Assembly: GCF_900168025.1 (NCBI RefSeq)
Contig: NZ_FUYN01000003.1
Span: 62,001 to 126,000 of the forward strand
Direction: 5' to 3'
DNA length: 64,000 bases
DNA from: Acetoanaerobium noterae
GTDB lineage: Bacteria; Bacillota; Clostridia; Peptostreptococcales; Filifactoraceae
Part shown: positions 30,222 through 60,040 of the stretch, piece by piece
Layout: every line of letters begins with the position of its first letter
How positions within the stretch are numbered: the stretch's first letter is position 1
The notes under the pieces: model-generated
Databases searched by the model: none
The model's input: the letters and a program-made list of their open reading frames with translations, nothing else
What the model was told of the DNA's origin: nothing
Position numbers and translations under genes: made by a program

Positions 30222-30311
30222 TCTCTCCTCACGACAATGGCAAAGTAGTAGAAATGCTATGACGCAAAGCTATAGGGCCTTACCGTAACTGGTTGGCAGC
30301 CTAGCTACCGA
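30222..30311 (+). ncRNA. c-di-GMP-I (GEMM-I) riboswitch
   Basis: Conserved GEMM-I landmarks are present in order: CACGACAA near 30230, GGCAAAG at 30239-30245, a short hairpin capped by a GAAA tetraloop, GACGCAAAGC (30261-30270), a GGGCC stem and GGCAGCC with its ACCG end at 30307-30310. It controls the secreted transglutaminase-like gene 16 bases further on. CTCCT (30225-30229) just before the aptamer is complementary to the ribosome binding site AGGAG (30314-30318). If P1 extends that far, ligand binding would hide the start and lower translation. Confidence 0.9.
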
Positions 30312-30326
30312 AAAGGAGTTTTTATT

Positions 30327-51686: not shown

Positions 51687-51726
51687 AAAAAAAGTGACTG
51701 TAGCTAAATCTGCAGTCACTTTTTTA
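51687..51726 (+). terminator. Terminator after the glutaredoxin-like gene
   Basis: AAAAAAAGTGACTG pairs with CAGTCACTTTTTT around TAGCTAAATCTG; T-run follows. Confidence 0.85.
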
Positions 51727-51870
51727 TATTTAGAACTTAGAACCTCTCATATTTTATAGCTTATCAGTTACTCTTCTTATGATTATTAATTCCTCTCATA
51801 TTTTAAATCTTAAGACAGATTTTCATAAATTTGATTGTAAATATTTGGAGTTAATAATTTAACAATTTTA

Positions 51871-51899
51871 TTGACTTTTTAGCGCTCTGCTGATACTCT
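51871..51899 (+). promoter_or_regulatory. Promoter of the hydEGF operon (tentative)
   Basis: TTGACT (51871-51876), 17-base spacer, TACTCT (51894-51899). A start near 51906 gives a 5' leader of about 210 bases before the first gene. The stretch 51727-51870 between this and the glutaredoxin terminator is AT-rich with no feature recognised. Confidence 0.5.
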
Positions 51900-51905
51900 G
51901 TATTT

Positions 51906-52078
51906 AGAATAATTCATTAAAAATTTATCAATAAATTATTCTTCGCTTTTTCTAAGAGGTGAGCCTTTTATTAAGAGTGCTTTTGAAATGAACATCCTGA
52001 TAGAAAAGAGAATTCTAATCTTCAAGGATCGGGCAAATAGGCATATTCAACCTATGGATCCTTCCATAGGTTTTTTTG
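51906..52078 (+). ncRNA. Structured leader with terminator/antiterminator (candidate riboswitch)
   Basis: Hairpin a: GAATAATT (51907-51914) with AATTATTC (51934-51941). Stem b: CTTTTTCTA (51946-51954) with TAGAAAAG (52001-52008), enclosing AGGTG (51957-51961) with CATCCT (51993-51998); this could be a ligand-binding core. Antiterminator: AAGGATC (52024-52030) with GATCCTT (52057-52063), stacked on ATAGG (52037-52041) with CCTAT (52051-52055). Terminator: AACCTATGGA (52049-52058) with TCCATAGGTT (52063-52072), then seven T. Antiterminator and terminator cannot coexist. It matches no T-box, TPP, FMN, lysine, SAM, M-box, cobalamin or ZTP motif that I can recall. Confidence 0.65.
52049..52078 (+). 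terminator. Leader terminator before the hyd operon
   Basis: A perfect 10-bp stem, loop TCCT, then T7. It lies 36 bases before the first gene of the operon, so transcription must read through for the maturases to be made. Confidence 0.85.
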
Positions 52079-52113
52079 TTTGCAGATTCAATAACTAGTG
52101 AAGGAGGTATATT

Positions 52114-52374
52114 ATGTCTCAAAAAATAGCTGTGATAGGAGCAGTTTTAGAATCACCTGATATTAGTCAAGAAAGATTCAACCATGTCCTATCTGAGTTT
52201 AAAGGCATAGTAAAAGGCAGAATGGGCATTCCCTTTCCAGAAGACAATATATCAGTTATATCTATAACTGTTGTAGGTAGTCTAGACGAGATAAACAGTC
52301 TTACTGGAAAACTTGGCAATATTCCTTCTGTTGTAGTCAAAACATCCATATCAAAGAAGGAAATAACCGCTTGA
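52114..52374 (+). CDS. TM1266-like iron-only hydrogenase system regulator
   Basis: An 86-residue ACT/ferredoxin-like-fold protein of the family first seen as TM1266, which is typically encoded beside hydEFG in Thermotogae and Clostridia and resembles the NikR C-terminal domain. The SLDEINSLTGKLGNIPSVVVKTSIS segment is typical. It has no DNA-binding helix-turn-helix of its own; its role is unclear. It is the first gene of the hydEGF operon, behind the leader described above. AAGGAGG precedes the ATG. Confidence 0.88.
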   Translation: MSQKIAVIGAVLESPDISQERFNHVLSEFKGIVKGRMGIPFPEDNISVISITVVGSLDEINSLTGKLGNIPSVVVKTSISKKEITA

Positions 52375-53420
52375 TGCGTGATTTAATCAATGAGCTCTAT
52401 CAGGAGCAAACCCTTTCAAAAGCCAATCTTATAAACCTTCTTCTTCATATAAATGATGAAGAAAGGGAGTATCTTTATGAAAAAGCCTATAGCGTGCGCT
52501 ACGAGCATTACAAAAACAGCGTGTATGTGAGAGGCTTAATAGAATTTTCCAACTACTGCAAAAACGATTGTACCTATTGCGGAATCTCTATACATAATAA
52601 GGAATTAACCCGTTATCACATGACCCCAGAGGAAGTAATAAAAACTGCAGAAATCGGATATAGCTTAGGCTTTAGAACATTTGTAATGCAAGGTGGAGAA
52701 GATACTTCATTTACAGATGATAAGTTTGCAGCTATTATTTCCAGCATTAAAACTCAGTTTCCTGAGGCTGCTGTAACCCTCTCTATCGGTGAGCGTTCAA
52801 AAGAGAGCTATCAAAAGCTTTACGATGCAGGAGCAGATCGTTTCCTAATCAGACATGAAACTATTAATAAAAAACTATATGAAAAGCTCCATCCAAAAAT
52901 GTCTTATGAAAATAGAATTAAATCGCTTTTTGATTTAAAAGACATAGGATTTCAGGTAGGTACAGGTTTCATGGTAGGTGTCCCTGGTCAAGAAATTGAG
53001 GATATAGCAAATGACCTCTTATTTATAAAGGAGCTTAATCCTCACATGATAGGTATAGGGCCATTTATCCCTCATAAAAACACGCCTCTTAGAGATGAAT
53101 CTGCTGGAAGCGCTGAACTTACCTATACATTAATTGCAATACTTAGGCTTATGCTTCCTACTTCGCTTATACCATCTACGACTTCACTTGCAACTTTGAA
53201 AGCTGAAAATAGATACAAGGGATTTAGAGTTGGTGCAAATGTAGTAATGCCAAATCTTACCCCTTATGATTATAAAAAGAGCTACCAGCTCTATGATGGA
53301 AAGAAAATAACTGATACCGAAAGCTACGAGGCACTTGAGCAATTAAAAAAGGAATGCTTAGATGCAGGGTTTTATATTGATATGGCGCGCGGTGATTATA
53401 AAAATTGGAGGAGAAAATAA
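52374..53420 (+). CDS. hydE: [FeFe]-hydrogenase maturase HydE
   Basis: A radical SAM enzyme that helps build the bridging ligand of the H-cluster. The radical SAM cysteines are Cys62, Cys66 and Cys69 (YCKNDCTYCG). The BioB/HydE-type MQGGEDTSF segment near 105 follows. I chose the ATG at 52374, which overlaps the preceding stop by one base. The 348 residues are typical. Its stop overlaps the hydG start (TAATG). Confidence 0.95.
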   Translation: MRDLINELYQEQTLSKANLINLLLHINDEEREYLYEKAYSVRYEHYKNSVYVRGLIEFSNYCKNDCTYCGISIHNKELTRYHMTPEEVIKTAEIGYSLGFRTFVMQGGEDTSFTDDKFAAIISSIKTQFPEAAVTLSIGERSKESYQKLYDAGADRFLIRHETINKKLYEKLHPKMSYENRIKSLFDLKDIGFQVGTGFMVGVPGQEIEDIANDLLFIKELNPHMIGIGPFIPHKNTPLRDESAGSAELTYTLIAILRLMLPTSLIPSTTSLATLKAENRYKGFRVGANVVMPNLTPYDYKKSYQLYDGKKITDTESYEALEQLKKECLDAGFYIDMARGDYKNWRRK

Positions 53421-54793
53421 TGATAAATGAACAATTGATATACGAAACTCTAGAAAAAAATAAAAATGTACCTAAAGAAGCTTTACTAGACATTATAGAT
53501 AAAGGTTCTAAGCTTCAAGGTCTTACTTATGATGAGATAGCGGCTATACTTCAAAATGACGACGAAGAAGTAACAAAAGCTCTTTTTAAAGCTGCTGGAG
53601 AAATCAAAAATAAAATTTATGGCAATAGAGTTGTAATGTTTGCTCCTTTATATATTTCTAATTACTGCGTAAATTCATGTAAATACTGCGGCTATCAAGC
53701 CTGTAATCAGTTTGACAGAAAGAAACTGTCACAAGAAGAAATCATACAGGAAGTAAAGATATTGGAGCAAATGGGTCATAAAAGAATTGCTCTTGAAGCA
53801 GGAGAAGACCCTAATAACTGTCCTTTGGATTACGTTCTAGAGGCTATTGACACAATCTACTCTGTAAAAACAAATGATGGAAATATCAGACGTATAAATG
53901 TAAATGTCGCAGCTACAACAGTTGAAAATTACAAAAAACTTAAAGATAGAGATATCGGAACTTATATCTTATTCCAAGAAACTTATCATCGTCCTACCTA
54001 TGAGGTAATGCACACAGATTGCTTAAAAGGCAACTATGAATACCATCTTACTGCTTTTGACAGAGCTATGGAAGCAGGAATAGATGATGTAGGCGCAGGG
54101 GTTTTATTTGGGCTATATGATTATAAATTCGAAGTACTTGGCCTTATGATGCACAACGCACATCTAGAGCAAAAATATGGAGTTGGTTTTCATACTATAT
54201 CTGTTCCTAGACTTAAAAAAGCAGAAGGTATGGATTTAGATATGTTCCCTCATATCCTTGATGATGAAACCTTTAAGCGCCTTATAGCTGTAATTAGACT
54301 TGCTGTGCCATTTACAGGTATGATACTTAGCACAAGAGAATCTGTGGAGCTTAGAAGAGAAGCTATACACTACGGTATTTCTCAAGTAAGCGCTGGCTCA
54401 TCAACTGGTGTAGGTGGATACAAGGAAAGAGAAGACGGAAGATCTGTAGAGCAGTTTGATGTGTCTGACCACCGTTCTCCACTAGAGGTTGTCAAGTCTC
54501 TTTTAGCTCAAGGCTTCGTACCTAGCTACTGTACAGCATGCTATAGATCAGGTCGTACTGGGGATAGATTTATGCAGCTTGCCAAATCAGGAAACATCCA
54601 CAATGTATGTAGTCCAAATGCTCTAATGACTCTTATGGAATATGTAGAGGATTTTGGAGATAGCGAGCTTAAATCTTCTGCTAAAGAGCTAATTTACAAA
54701 GAAGCAGAAAAGCTAGAAAATGAGAAAGTAAAAGCTCTATTAATAAAAAATCTTGGATTAATAGAAACTGGCGAAAGAGATTTATTCCTATAG
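53420..54793 (+). CDS. hydG: [FeFe]-hydrogenase maturase HydG
   Basis: A radical SAM tyrosine lyase that delivers CO and CN- for the H-cluster. Cys83, Cys87 and Cys90 (YCVNSCKYC) bind the first cluster. The C-terminal CTACYRSG with a later Cys (HNVC) holds the auxiliary cluster unique to HydG and absent from ThiH. I chose ATG at 53420 because GGAGGAG lies before it and it is coupled to hydE. The 457 residues are typical. Confidence 0.95.
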   Translation: MINEQLIYETLEKNKNVPKEALLDIIDKGSKLQGLTYDEIAAILQNDDEEVTKALFKAAGEIKNKIYGNRVVMFAPLYISNYCVNSCKYCGYQACNQFDRKKLSQEEIIQEVKILEQMGHKRIALEAGEDPNNCPLDYVLEAIDTIYSVKTNDGNIRRINVNVAATTVENYKKLKDRDIGTYILFQETYHRPTYEVMHTDCLKGNYEYHLTAFDRAMEAGIDDVGAGVLFGLYDYKFEVLGLMMHNAHLEQKYGVGFHTISVPRLKKAEGMDLDMFPHILDDETFKRLIAVIRLAVPFTGMILSTRESVELRREAIHYGISQVSAGSSTGVGGYKEREDGRSVEQFDVSDHRSPLEVVKSLLAQGFVPSYCTACYRSGRTGDRFMQLAKSGNIHNVCSPNALMTLMEYVEDFGDSELKSSAKELIYKEAEKLENEKVKALLIKNLGLIETGERDLFL

Positions 54794-54803
54794 GAGGCTG
54801 AAA

Positions 54804-56000
54804 ATGAATACTACACCTTCTGGAAACAGAACCCATATAGGGATATTTGGAAAAAGAAATGCAGGAAAATCTTCGTTATTAAATGCAATAACTGAGCAAA
54901 AGGTATCACTAGTTTCAGATATTGGTGGTACCACTACTGACCCTGTAAAAAAAGCTATGGAGCTTCTTCCTTATGGTCCAGTATTATTTATAGATACTGC
55001 TGGTCTAGATGATGTAGGAGTGCTAGGAGAGCTTAGAAAAAATAGAGCTAAGGAAATGTTCACTCAGATAGACTTTGCTCTCATTGTCCACGATATAAAT
55101 GATATAGATAAAGAGTTTGAGTCAGAGCTTTTGCGAGAATTTAAAAGATTTTCTGTTTCATATATGATAGTTATTAACAAGCTAGATTCAGCTGATGAAA
55201 AAACTAAAAAGCAAATACAAGAAACTTATCCAGAAGCTTTCTTCTTATCTACTTCTAAAAGAGAAGACGTACTTGATTTTAAAAAAGCTCTGATTAATAA
55301 GCTTTCAAAAAAAATGGAAGAGGAAACCATAATTGGGGACCTACTACCTTATGGCAGTCACGTTGTCTTGGTTGTTCCTATAGATTCAGAAGCTCCAAAA
55401 GGAAGAATCATCTTGCCTCAGGTTCAGCTGATAAGAGATGCACTAGACCATGGTATAATCTGCCACGTAGTCAGAGATACCGAGCTATCTGATACCCTAG
55501 AAAGACTAGATAAGGTTGATTTAGTAGTTACAGATTCACAGGCCTTTCAAGAGGTATCTAAAATAGTACCTGAAGAAATACCTTTAACTAGCTTTTCTAT
55601 ATTATTTGCGAGACAAAAAGGCGATTTAAAAACCTTCTATGATGGGATAAAGGTAATAGAAAGCCTTCCTCCTGATGCTAGGATATTGATGGCTGAAATA
55701 TGCACACACAATACCTCTCATGAAGATATAGGAAGATATAAAATTCCTGCTCTCCTAAAAAGAAATCTTGGGGAATCACTTAGATTTGAATTTTTCCAAG
55801 GTAATGAATATCCACAGGATGTATCGAATTACGATTTGGTAGTCCACTGTGGTGGCTGTATGATGACTAAAAAACAGATGAATAATAGACTTAATCTTTT
55901 AAATCAAGTAGCTGTTCCTGTAACAAATTATGGAGTACTTCTTGCTTGGGGCGCTAGGATTCTGGAGCGGTCTATGAAACCCTTTAAAAACGAACTCTAG
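54804..56000 (+). CDS. hydF: [FeFe]-hydrogenase maturase HydF
   Basis: A GTPase scaffold that carries the 2Fe precursor to HydA. The P-loop GKRNAGKS is at 16-23, and IDTAGLDDVG the switch II. C-terminal Fe-S ligands are ICTHN and VVHCGGCMMT (the CxH...HCxxC pattern). The 398 residues are normal. AGGAGG precedes the ATG. The operon therefore carries all three maturases, E-G-F in this order, and ends at a terminator. Confidence 0.95.
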   Translation: MNTTPSGNRTHIGIFGKRNAGKSSLLNAITEQKVSLVSDIGGTTTDPVKKAMELLPYGPVLFIDTAGLDDVGVLGELRKNRAKEMFTQIDFALIVHDINDIDKEFESELLREFKRFSVSYMIVINKLDSADEKTKKQIQETYPEAFFLSTSKREDVLDFKKALINKLSKKMEEETIIGDLLPYGSHVVLVVPIDSEAPKGRIILPQVQLIRDALDHGIICHVVRDTELSDTLERLDKVDLVVTDSQAFQEVSKIVPEEIPLTSFSILFARQKGDLKTFYDGIKVIESLPPDARILMAEICTHNTSHEDIGRYKIPALLKRNLGESLRFEFFQGNEYPQDVSNYDLVVHCGGCMMTKKQMNNRLNLLNQVAVPVTNYGVLLAWGARILERSMKPFKNEL

Positions 56001-58669: not shown

Positions 58670-60040
58670 CTACTTATCTTTTCTTGAATAATATTTTGTA
58701 TGAAGTAGTTCATGTGATTTATGGCCAAGAGGATTTTTTAGAAAATCTTTGTATAGCTTTTTAATTGCTGGATTTTCATGAGATTTTCTAAGCTTGCTTT
58801 CACTATCGTGCTGATAGGTTCCACTTATTCTATTTTCATATGCCATAGGTTTATGCTTAGGAAGCAGTACTTTTGGCTGTCCTCCACCACTTATACATCC
58901 CTCTGGACATGTCATAACTTCTACAAAGTGATAATCAGCTTTTCCATTTTTCATAGCTTCTATTATAGGCTCTACATTTTTTAGGCCTGCAACTACAGCT
59001 ACTTTTAGTTCTAAGTCTCCTACCTTGATTATAGATTCGCTGAAGTTTTTATTTCCTCTTACAGCTACAACATCTACGCTATCGATTGGTTGATTTGTGA
59101 TTAGCTCATAGCCTGTTCTAATTGCAGCTTCCATAACTCCACCAGTAACACCAAAGATATTTCCTGCTCCAGTATAATTACCAAGAGGCTGATCAAAATT
59201 TTCTTCTTGAAGATTTACAAAATCAATATCCATTTCTTTTATCAAATAAGCAAGCTCTCTAGTTGTAAGTACAACATCTACATCTCTTTCTCCACTGCTA
59301 TTCATTTCTTTTCTTTCACTTTCAAAGCTTTTACATGTGCATGGCATTATGGATACACTAGCTATATCCTTCGCTGATTTGTTATCTAGCTTTGCACCGT
59401 AAGTTTTAAATATTGCTCCAGCCATTTGCTGAGGAGATTTACAGGTTGATAGATGGTCTAAATACTCTGGATGTGATTGCTCCATGTATTTTACCCATGC
59501 TGGACAGCATGAAGTAAACATAGGTAGCTTTTCATTTTTTGTAACTCTTTCAATTAGCTCTGTTCCTTCTTCCATGATAGTTAAATCAGCTGAGAAGTTT
59601 GTATCATACACCCTATCAAATCCTAGTTTTCTAAGTGCTGCAGCCATTTTACCAGGAGTTAGGCTTCCTAAATCCATTCCAAAATCTTCTGCAATTGCAA
59701 CTCTTACAGCTGGTGCACACTGAACTACTGAGAACTGATTCTTATCATTCAATATATCTAATACTTTATGTATGTTGTTATCATAATAAGCTGCAAACAA
59801 AGGTTCTTTTATACCTTTTAGCATCTTTCTATCGGATAGCTTTTTCTCAATTGGTTCTATTTCTTCGTCAAAAACAGAGGCAAATGAGCTGCACATCTGT
59901 ACACATTGACCACATAAAACACATTTATTTTCATCTATTGATTGAGGCTTTCCAGCATTACCGCTTATTGCATCCACTGGACAAACATCCGAGCACATCT
60001 TACATCCTGTACATAGTTCTTGATCTATTAAAACAGCCAT
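58670..60040 (-). CDS. hydA: [FeFe]-hydrogenase catalytic subunit
   Basis: Makes or consumes H2. Two N-terminal [4Fe-4S] clusters use Cys10/13/16/20 and Cys40/43/46/50. H-cluster ligands are Cys178 (FTSCCPAW, L1), Cys234 (IMPCTCKSFE, L2) and Cys378 and Cys382 (MTCPEGCISGGGQP, L3). At 456 residues it is a compact enzyme without the extra N-terminal clusters of larger hydrogenases. It ends with about 40 residues past the small-subunit-like motif. It follows a polyferredoxin gene by 14 bp, so electrons probably pass through that partner. H-cluster assembly depends on HydEFG at 52-56 kb. Confidence 0.95.
   Translation of the reverse strand: MAVLIDQELCTGCKMCSDVCPVDAISGNAGKPQSIDENKCVLCGQCVQMCSSFASVFDEEIEPIEKKLSDRKMLKGIKEPLFAAYYDNNIHKVLDILNDKNQFSVVQCAPAVRVAIAEDFGMDLGSLTPGKMAAALRKLGFDRVYDTNFSADLTIMEEGTELIERVTKNEKLPMFTSCCPAWVKYMEQSHPEYLDHLSTCKSPQQMAGAIFKTYGAKLDNKSAKDIASVSIMPCTCKSFESERKEMNSSGERDVDVVLTTRELAYLIKEMDIDFVNLQEENFDQPLGNYTGAGNIFGVTGGVMEAAIRTGYELITNQPIDSVDVVAVRGNKNFSESIIKVGDLELKVAVVAGLKNVEPIIEAMKNGKADYHFVEVMTCPEGCISGGGQPKVLLPKHKPMAYENRISGTYQHDSESKLRKSHENPAIKKLYKDFLKNPLGHKSHELLHTKYYSRKDK

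Follow-up and report, generated by a model that had tools for sequence, protein, structure and literature searches.

The maturase operon TM1266-hydE-hydG-hydF of Acetoanaerobium noterae very probably has an RNA-level switch, an element outside the known Rfam families, as judged from the leader and its relatives. We found by computation a covarying, two-fold symmetric core, an alternative pairing between this core and a terminator, a limited set of gene contexts in which the element recurs, and a link between its occurrence and that of TM1266, the putative regulator encoded by the first gene. In our preferred reading, held at a probability of roughly 60%, the element is a PyrR-like attenuator that belongs to a new RNA family and is probably read by TM1266. 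The RNA family is new, while the logic of the mechanism would, by analogy, be that already known from PyrR. To our knowledge, hardly anything is known about the regulation of [FeFe]-hydrogenase H-cluster assembly.

In the window, by which we mean the whole analyzed stretch of 64,000 nt, the operon occupies positions 52114-56000 of the plus strand. TM1266 (52114-52374) encodes an 86-aa protein of the TM1266 family, a putative regulator (TIGR03959, 94.1 bits against a cut-off of 60.8; PF21699), and is followed by hydE (52374-53420; TIGR03956, 477.5 bits), hydG (53405-54793; TIGR03955, 634 bits; 53405 is the ORF start and the ATG at 53420 the likely start codon) and hydF (54804-56000; TIGR03918, 524.7 bits). 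An [FeFe]-hydrogenase gene (PF02906, PF02256) lies nearby on the opposite strand, at 58670-60040. The leader in front of the operon is about 200 nt long and folds better than its shuffled versions (z -2.96; 1 of 200 shuffles as good). A weak putative promoter, noticed by eye at 51871-51899 of the plus strand, is comprised of TTGACT and TACTCT at a 17-nt spacing, the latter preceded by TGA (extended -10), and predicts a start at about 51906; it is absent from the output of a consensus promoter scan, its second hexamer agreeing at only three of six positions.

The core of the element, referred to as type A, spans 39 nt (51993-52031, plus strand) and scores 37.5 bits with R2, our later model. In its own genome, R2 yields one match only at E<=0.01, the one before TM1266, the window being part of the training set. 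The core folds into three short helices, P1 (51994-51998/52025-52029), P2 (52002-52004/52019-52021, short in the window with three pairs plus U.U) and P3 (52007-52009/52014-52016), separated by the internal loops GA/CA between P1 and P2 and AA/AA between P2 and P3. The consensus of 17 aligned leaders is CCU-RA-N4-AA-AGA...UCU-RA-N4-AA-AGG. By pattern or by eye, this core is found upstream of TM1266 in 23 of the 30 best loci, our own included; it is not found in L003, L006, L015, L024, L025, L027, and L029. The 4-bp helix varies among leaders as CAGA/UCUG, GGGA/UCCC, CAAA/UUUG, CGGU/ACCG, and UGAA/UUCA. In the 17 leaders, 95.4% of the cells are paired, with 19 both-side changes compared to a mean of 5.1 after shuffling and at most 4 in slid alignments, and RNAalifold, unprompted, returned the same core pairs plus a third pair in P1. 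With 49 leaders, including those of other genes, 95.3% of the cells are paired and 53 show both-side changes (16.5 shuffled, at most 17 slid), the covariation score being 0.373 as against 0.180. The covarying pairs that the earlier note had proposed to look for in homologous leaders are therefore there, both in the core and in a hairpin upstream of it.

The two strands of the core are alike. The 5' half reads Y-C-U-D-A-N4-A-A-A-G-R and the 3' half Y-C-U-D-A-N4-A-A-A-G-G, the C and the U being invariant in each half in 49 of 49 rows, and the A-A-A-G bases being kept in 35, 44, 49, and 46 rows of the 5' half and in 39, 45, 45, and 43 rows of the 3' half. Only one in 20,000 random reorderings of the 3' columns is as similar to the 5' half. 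These features make the core a duplex in which a dyad relates two similar internal loops 4 bp apart. The simplest reader of two such loops in inverted orientation would be a homodimer. Alternatively, the core could be the aptamer of a small-molecule riboswitch that holds one or two copies of an H-cluster-assembly metabolite or metal complex, a ligand that the SsuABC-like or ECF transporter described below would also bring into the cell, TM1266 being just one of the regulated genes. The small core, its purine-rich internal loops and a platform made of either a terminator or a hidden Shine-Dalgarno sequence (SD) suit this explanation; however, the two-fold symmetry of the strands is less well explained by it, as is the link with TM1266, and we consider it unlikely, at perhaps one chance in a few.

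The aptamer drawn in the earlier note, with CTTTTTCTA pairing to TAGAAAAG around AGGTG/CATCCT, is not conserved. Its 5' strand takes part in a covarying hairpin of its own (51946-51977, plus strand; 51946-51955/51968-51977 with the inner GAGG/CCTT), and CATCCTGATAGAAAAG, which had been placed in the same aptamer, belongs to the conserved core, where its partners are those of 51994-51998/52025-52029, 52002-52004/52019-52021, and 52007-52009/52014-52016. In 19 gap-free aligned leaders, selected by the exact cap GAGR-N4-YCUU, which was then excluded from counting, all ten outer pairs of the 5' hairpin show both-side changes, 91.6% of the cells are paired, and the covariation score is 0.896 compared to 0.221 after shuffling and at most 0.218 after sliding. 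A hairpin with a GAG...YCUU cap occurs upstream of the core in 32 of the 75 collected leaders, as against 3.0 (maximum 9) after letter-pair shuffling; these 75 are curated sites and include near-copies, such as L103/L105, L109/L110, L012/L013, and L016/L022.

Downstream of the core, all ten pairs of the 10-bp terminator that the earlier note had seen at 52049-52078 are present (52049-52058/52063-52072, plus strand, followed by the U-run), with a computed energy of -14.4 kcal/mol. The hairpin at 52049-52072 is one of two terminator-like sites in 2 kb, where shuffles give 1.0 expected. The bases of the antiterminator (52024-52063, plus strand) are common to the 3' strand of the core and the 5' arm of the terminator: AAGGATC at 52024-52030 and GATCCTT at 52057-52063 form seven of seven pairs, and ATAGG at 52037-52041 can pair with CCTAT at 52051-52055. 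The same is seen in relatives, for instance in L123, where CUGAAAGGAAGUUAG, the core's 3' strand, could base-pair with CUAACUUUCCUUUC, which comprises the terminator's 5' arm and loop. In 60 leaders for which a script found a hairpin and a U-run, the antiterminator duplex has a mean energy of -11.4 kcal/mol compared to -8.1 kcal/mol for shuffled arms, and in 24 of them at most 5 of 100 shuffles are as good. In the other 36, the window among these (11 of 100 shuffled arms as good), the pairing is not significant. Hence the antiterminator proposed earlier exists as a set of pairs and gains weight from the relatives, but not from the window alone. The script missed visible terminators in L076, L080, and L095, and its picks in L073, L082, L112, and L139 are probably false.

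These pairings suggest a switch in which the core would act as an anti-antiterminator. When folded, it would tie up its own 3' strand and block the antiterminator, the terminator would form, and transcription would end before TM1266. When the core is not kept folded, its 3' strand would instead capture the terminator's loop and 5' arm, allowing RNA polymerase to continue. As core folding and antitermination compete for the same bases, a stabilized core should mean termination. Where relatives lack a terminator, the core's 3' strand coincides with or adjoins the ribosome-binding site of hydG (L085-L089, L101, L139, L141, and L147) or hydF (L148, and adjoining in L082). A stabilized core would hide the start of hydG or hydF in these leaders, and therefore the folded state should again be OFF. 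From both platforms we infer that the bound, folded core should be the OFF state. With the 3' arm of the terminator unmade, the best fold of the window leader has -28.7 kcal/mol with the core and -26.4 kcal/mol with the antiterminator, and at full length -38.6 compared to -29.6 kcal/mol, in favor of termination. An energy argument for a default ON state finds no support in these folds; as the computed energies are balanced and then favor termination, an ON default would need cotranscriptional kinetics. That the lowest-energy fold includes the terminator would also suit an unregulated, constitutive 5' UTR whose terminator is leaky and which is conserved for mRNA stability only. Such a UTR is very improbable, as conserved loops and a covarying helix are found at several genes, with either a terminator or an SD as partner.

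The element did not match known RNA families. In the window, the Rfam 15 scan at gathering thresholds found only a c-di-GMP-I riboswitch located elsewhere (30229-30312, 66.7 bits), and the leader was unmatched; the region 51700-52250 at E<=10 gave only two sub-threshold matches, to a microRNA and to a pyrrolysine-insertion family. In 14 related loci, the only match was a T-box located elsewhere in L005, and none of 14 regions before other TM1266 genes had a match over threshold at E<=5. The PyrR binding site RF00515 had no match in the window leader at E<=10 and reached 26-31 bits (threshold 54) in five of these 14 regions, the best being 30.5 bits in L159. The T-box, PyrR, and other Rfam families were rejected, as their thresholds were not reached, and a likeness to a lysine-riboswitch loop (GAGGTG...AAGAGT) was dropped in view of no Rfam signal. 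The PyrR-site consensus ARUCCAGAGAGGYU, as given in PMC7430163, is absent from the alignments of type A and of the sister form described below. Among the open-licence papers listed by our searches, PMC9431212 and PMC7282089 included, we saw neither the element nor a function of TM1266 described.

To see which genes follow the element, we relied on two models, R1, built from the leaders of the strongest TM1266 matches, and R2, run class-wide. At E<=0.1, R1 matched 82 of the 198 related genomes, a number that includes chance matches. To check the first gene behind a site, we ran tblastn, the queries being the window maturases and reference proteins of the transporter and NifH-like kinds. The element precedes hydE, mostly with a terminator-like hairpin (L068, L070, L072, L075, L076, L080, L084, L095, and L099; L059 is short), hydG, with the 3' strand of the core as the ribosome-binding site (L085-L089, L101), hydF, with the core adjoining the ribosome-binding site (L082), SsuABC-like transporter operons (L074, L077, L078, and L079; members of the family match PF09084 and SsuA_fam), and a nitrogenase-like operon with NifH- and NifDK-like proteins (L073) and, by reading, a Fec-type transporter. 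Some of the TM1266 genes themselves are followed by an ECF transporter component (L130, L146) or by an NMT1/phosphonate-type substrate-binding protein (L135). In the 75 leaders, a curated set that gives no measure of specificity, TM1266 comes first in 39 (and, by reading frame, also in L123 as the 40th), hydE in 12 (L123 among them), hydG in 12, an ABC permease gene in five, hydF in two, and a NifH-like gene in one; four have none. R1 matches inside genes (L081, L083, L091-L093, L098, and L100) or with no related gene (L090, L094, L096, and L097) were judged to be chance ones. Of the R1 matches with E of 0.001-0.1, a part was inspected, and of the R2 matches with E of 1e-4 to 0.01, only L150. 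Genome searches scored 17 to 84 of hundreds to thousands of candidates per genome, with rough E-values; as only this part of the candidates was scored, absences are soft.

Class-wide, R2 matched 51 of 391 genomes at E<=0.01. At E<1e-4, there were 31 places in 29 genomes, all of which were retained, and 29 of the 31 precede TM1266, hydE, hydF, hydG, an SsuABC-like permease gene or the nitrogenase-like operon (as determined by tblastn, or by coordinates in the case of G060). The exceptions are G431 (L142), where the element lies before an ORF resembling, by eye, an ABC substrate-binding protein, and G524, where hydE lies beside it and the contig ends. Genomes outside the R2 training set contribute 21 of the 31 places, although one of them, G060, is a near-copy of a training genome. 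The hydE loci L032-L035 of named organisms carry no R2 element, and R3, the model of the sister form, gives a single chance-level match there (L032, E 0.12). Transporters and biosynthetic genes in one regulon are typical of riboswitches, which is a further point for the small-molecule alternative. In two congeneric genomes, high-scoring elements with a terminator (L066:6001-6039, L067:1501-1539) have no gene found behind them; these orphan copies are possibly a small RNA or a sponge. The element-bearing transporter in G021:C7 (L118, L074) has further neighbor genes, read by eye; the gene before it is presumably one for a hybrid cluster protein, and we take a nearby gene to encode a Crp/Fnr-like regulator.

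To relate the element to TM1266, we searched for the window TM1266 in 198 related genomes, our own included, and found it in 131; a search for HydG was positive in 146. TM1266 matches were split at a gap in match strength into clade A (E<1e-24, 52 genomes) and weaker ones (79), 67 genomes having none; clade B and a third kind, like clade A, were assigned by eye from the sequences. Among HydG-positive relatives, the element is found in 45 of 49 with clade-A TM1266, in two of 69 with other TM1266, and in two of 28 without TM1266; among those lacking HydG, the respective fractions are 3/3, 0/10, and 0/39. The positives were curated by removing chance R1 matches and keeping G136, G163, G164, and G187 (E 0.001-0.016), where the element lies before TM1266 or hydG. 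The contrast between clade A and other TM1266 is partly built in, as R1 was trained on leaders of clade-A TM1266; sites at other genes and genomes lacking TM1266 are less affected by this bias. The HydG-positive clade-A genomes without the element are G052, G133, G161, and G190. The element occurs without TM1266 in G106, where the hyd contig starts inside hydE (L186) and a weak TM1266-like match lies elsewhere (E 4.8e-4), and in G175, the genome of which is 77% complete. Ten genomes that have a HydG in the range of the window one (616-640 bits) and no TM1266 carry neither type of the element in the fetched stretch upstream of hydG (L187-L196).

In the class-wide search, TM1266 is present in 28 of the 29 genomes with strong matches compared to 240 of 391 overall, the exception being G383 (93% complete). 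TM1266 is far more common than the element, as only 46 of the 240 TM1266 genomes have an R2 match at E<=0.01; conversely, five of the 51 R2-match genomes lack TM1266, one with a strong match (G383) and four with weak ones (G023, G201, G358, and G373). The element without a detected TM1266 in G383 and G175 would be expected of a riboswitch. By contrast, its absence from 26 of the 28 HydG-positive relatives without TM1266 speaks against one. In family f1, to which the window species belongs, clade-A TM1266 is found in this species, six members have weak matches only, and one congener, which does have HydG, has none; judging from these sequences, the operon of the window species may have originated by horizontal transfer.

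Outside clade A, the upstream regions of 20 TM1266 genes contain a sister element in 14 cases, typically CUAA-UUGC-AAGGA...UCUGA-GCAA-AAGG. In L161, it has the opposite orientation and precedes a divergent hydE-hydG-like operon (L209), while L154 and L170 are intermediate, being matched by R2 as well (31.1 and 27 bits). In the alignment of 14 sequences, from which L169 was left out as poor and to which L161 was added, G replaces A at the third position after N4 in both halves, in all 14 sequences on the 3' side and in 12 of 14 on the 5' side, and the covariation is modest, with six cells compared to 2.0 and a score of 0.166 compared to 0.104. Of 52 genomes whose TM1266 falls outside clade A, R3 finds the sister form in 33 at E<=0.05, 20 of these 33 being unused in building the model, and does not find it in the other 19; nor does it match any of the 28 HydG genomes without TM1266, which is again at odds with a riboswitch. 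Of the 35 sister places, 32 are at most 500 nt upstream of TM1266, one is before hydG, and two (G100, G090) precede the kind of transporter that bears type A in other genomes. Class-wide, the sister form is rare (5 of 391 at E<=0.001), always before TM1266. In some sister leaders (e.g., L153, L155, L160, L162, and L164), UCURA...(G)AGGAU was seen by eye to flank a further hairpin upstream, which resembles one half-site on a long stem.

The TM1266 sequences of the clades differ clearly, as far as they were seen, and the type of the element shifts with the clade, at the transporter as well, which does not favor a riboswitch, although there are exceptions. In particular, the sister form precedes TM1266 in G468 and type A the transporter; the window protein finds one TM1266 in this genome, and the profile gives two matches. 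The type of the element and the clade of TM1266 are not related one to one, because genomes with the third kind of TM1266 carry type A (G552, G431, G524, G341, G556, G307, G392, G202, and G068).

The AlphaFold2 model of the window TM1266, built from 37 sequences, has a pLDDT of 96 and is superimposed on 2NZC, a structure of the TM1266 family, with Z 15.2 and rmsd 1.1 over 80, and on the C-terminal sensor domains of NikR with Z of about 12-14. All 86 aa align to the sensor domain, and there is no ribbon-helix-helix or other DNA-binding part. The fold search produced no RNA-binding protein above the level of the shared ferredoxin-like fold, ribosomal protein S6 and spliceosome chains having Z of about 9 to 10, and we know of no RNA-binding motif in TM1266. 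The TIGR03959 and PF21699 records describe it as a putative regulator of the iron-only hydrogenase system and name no target or mechanism, for which the RNA element is now a candidate. In G179, an ABC ATPase (L176:652-1770; G179:C24) carries a fused TM1266 domain at its C-terminus (PF21699, residues 284-356); its gene lies next to a FecCD-like permease gene, identified by eye, and a NifH-like gene, in the type of operon that bears the element in G021. As read from the gene arrangement, this fusion is a second route linking TM1266, the nitrogenase-like operon and the RNA. It suggests that TM1266 senses a ligand, since an ACT/NikR-like domain on a transporter ATPase points to ligand sensing, though by itself not to RNA binding.

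With ligand-sensing domains as its best fold matches and no known RNA-binding motif, TM1266 could be merely a regulated target that co-occurs with the element, the reader being some other dimeric RNA-binding protein. This is improbable, more so than a riboswitch, given that tblastn identifies TM1266 as the first downstream gene in 39 of 75 leaders and that the type of the element largely tracks the TM1266 clade. The earlier note had supposed switching at the RNA level by a small molecule, a metal state or a protein such as TM1266; the RNA level is very probable and TM1266 is now the leading candidate, while the aptamer core drawn in that note is not supported. As the candidate reader, TM1266 would report a signal related to the H-cluster, such as a precursor, iron or a metabolite, and its binding to the core would exert negative feedback on the operon, as PyrR does in the pyr operon.

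PyrR attenuation sites are also found before pyrP, a transporter gene. In the Bacillus pyr operon, such sites lie before the regulator gene and a further operon gene, and the PyrR dimer with its ligand stabilizes the anti-antiterminator (PMC7430163). The present system is similar in that the regulator gene is the first one behind the element, an antiterminator is possible, and further copies precede a transporter, a likeness of architecture only; it differs in the two symmetric internal loops, in the protein family and in the existence of SD-hiding versions. The RAT hairpin of LicT/BglG, bound through a CAT RNA-binding domain, overlaps the 5' arm of the terminator, an overlap absent here, as the core ends at 52031 and the terminator starts at 52049. 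Similar to the element in geometry, with two loops and the stem between them, LicT/BglG proteins read two bulges of one hairpin together with the intervening stem and are active as dimers (PMC7430163). However, binding there favors antitermination, while the core fold here excludes the antiterminator. NikR shares the fold of its C-terminal domain with TM1266, which lacks the ribbon-helix-helix of NikR.

The upstream regions contain a possible separate layer of control. Using the Rex consensus, we observed that 26 of 75 leaders (e.g., L012, L070, and L108) have a Rex-like operator pattern ahead of the core, 22 times as TTGATAA...TTAAC and four times as TTGACAA, which may be -35 boxes, compared to a mean of 0.035 after letter-pair shuffling; the pattern was not found in the 110 nt preceding the core of the window. 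Operons with this pattern, including the SsuABC-like transporter (L074, L077), are probably under redox control of initiation. Unlike the RNA element, Rex works at initiation, by way of DNA. In its Rex section, PMC8457756 has a Clostridium thermocellum table that lists hydG together with the putative hydrogenase-system regulator.

A bolder reading has about even odds in our view: TM1266 may be the first member of a new class of attenuation proteins that bind RNA, in which a NikR-type sensor domain devoid of any DNA-binding part reads a two-fold symmetric hairpin and ties expression of the maturases, an SsuABC-like importer and a nitrogenase-like operon to the status of H-cluster assembly, the half-sites having co-evolved with the clades (AAAG with A, AAGG with B). 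With a conserved RNA switch and a named candidate protein, the regulation of H-cluster assembly and the role of TM1266 both become directly testable. The maturation regulon gains a transporter and a nitrogenase-like operon, and the switch offers a handle for hydrogen production. If TM1266 does bind the core, it would represent a new class of RNA-binding regulators, and sensor domains of DNA-binding repressors could be RNA regulators on their own.
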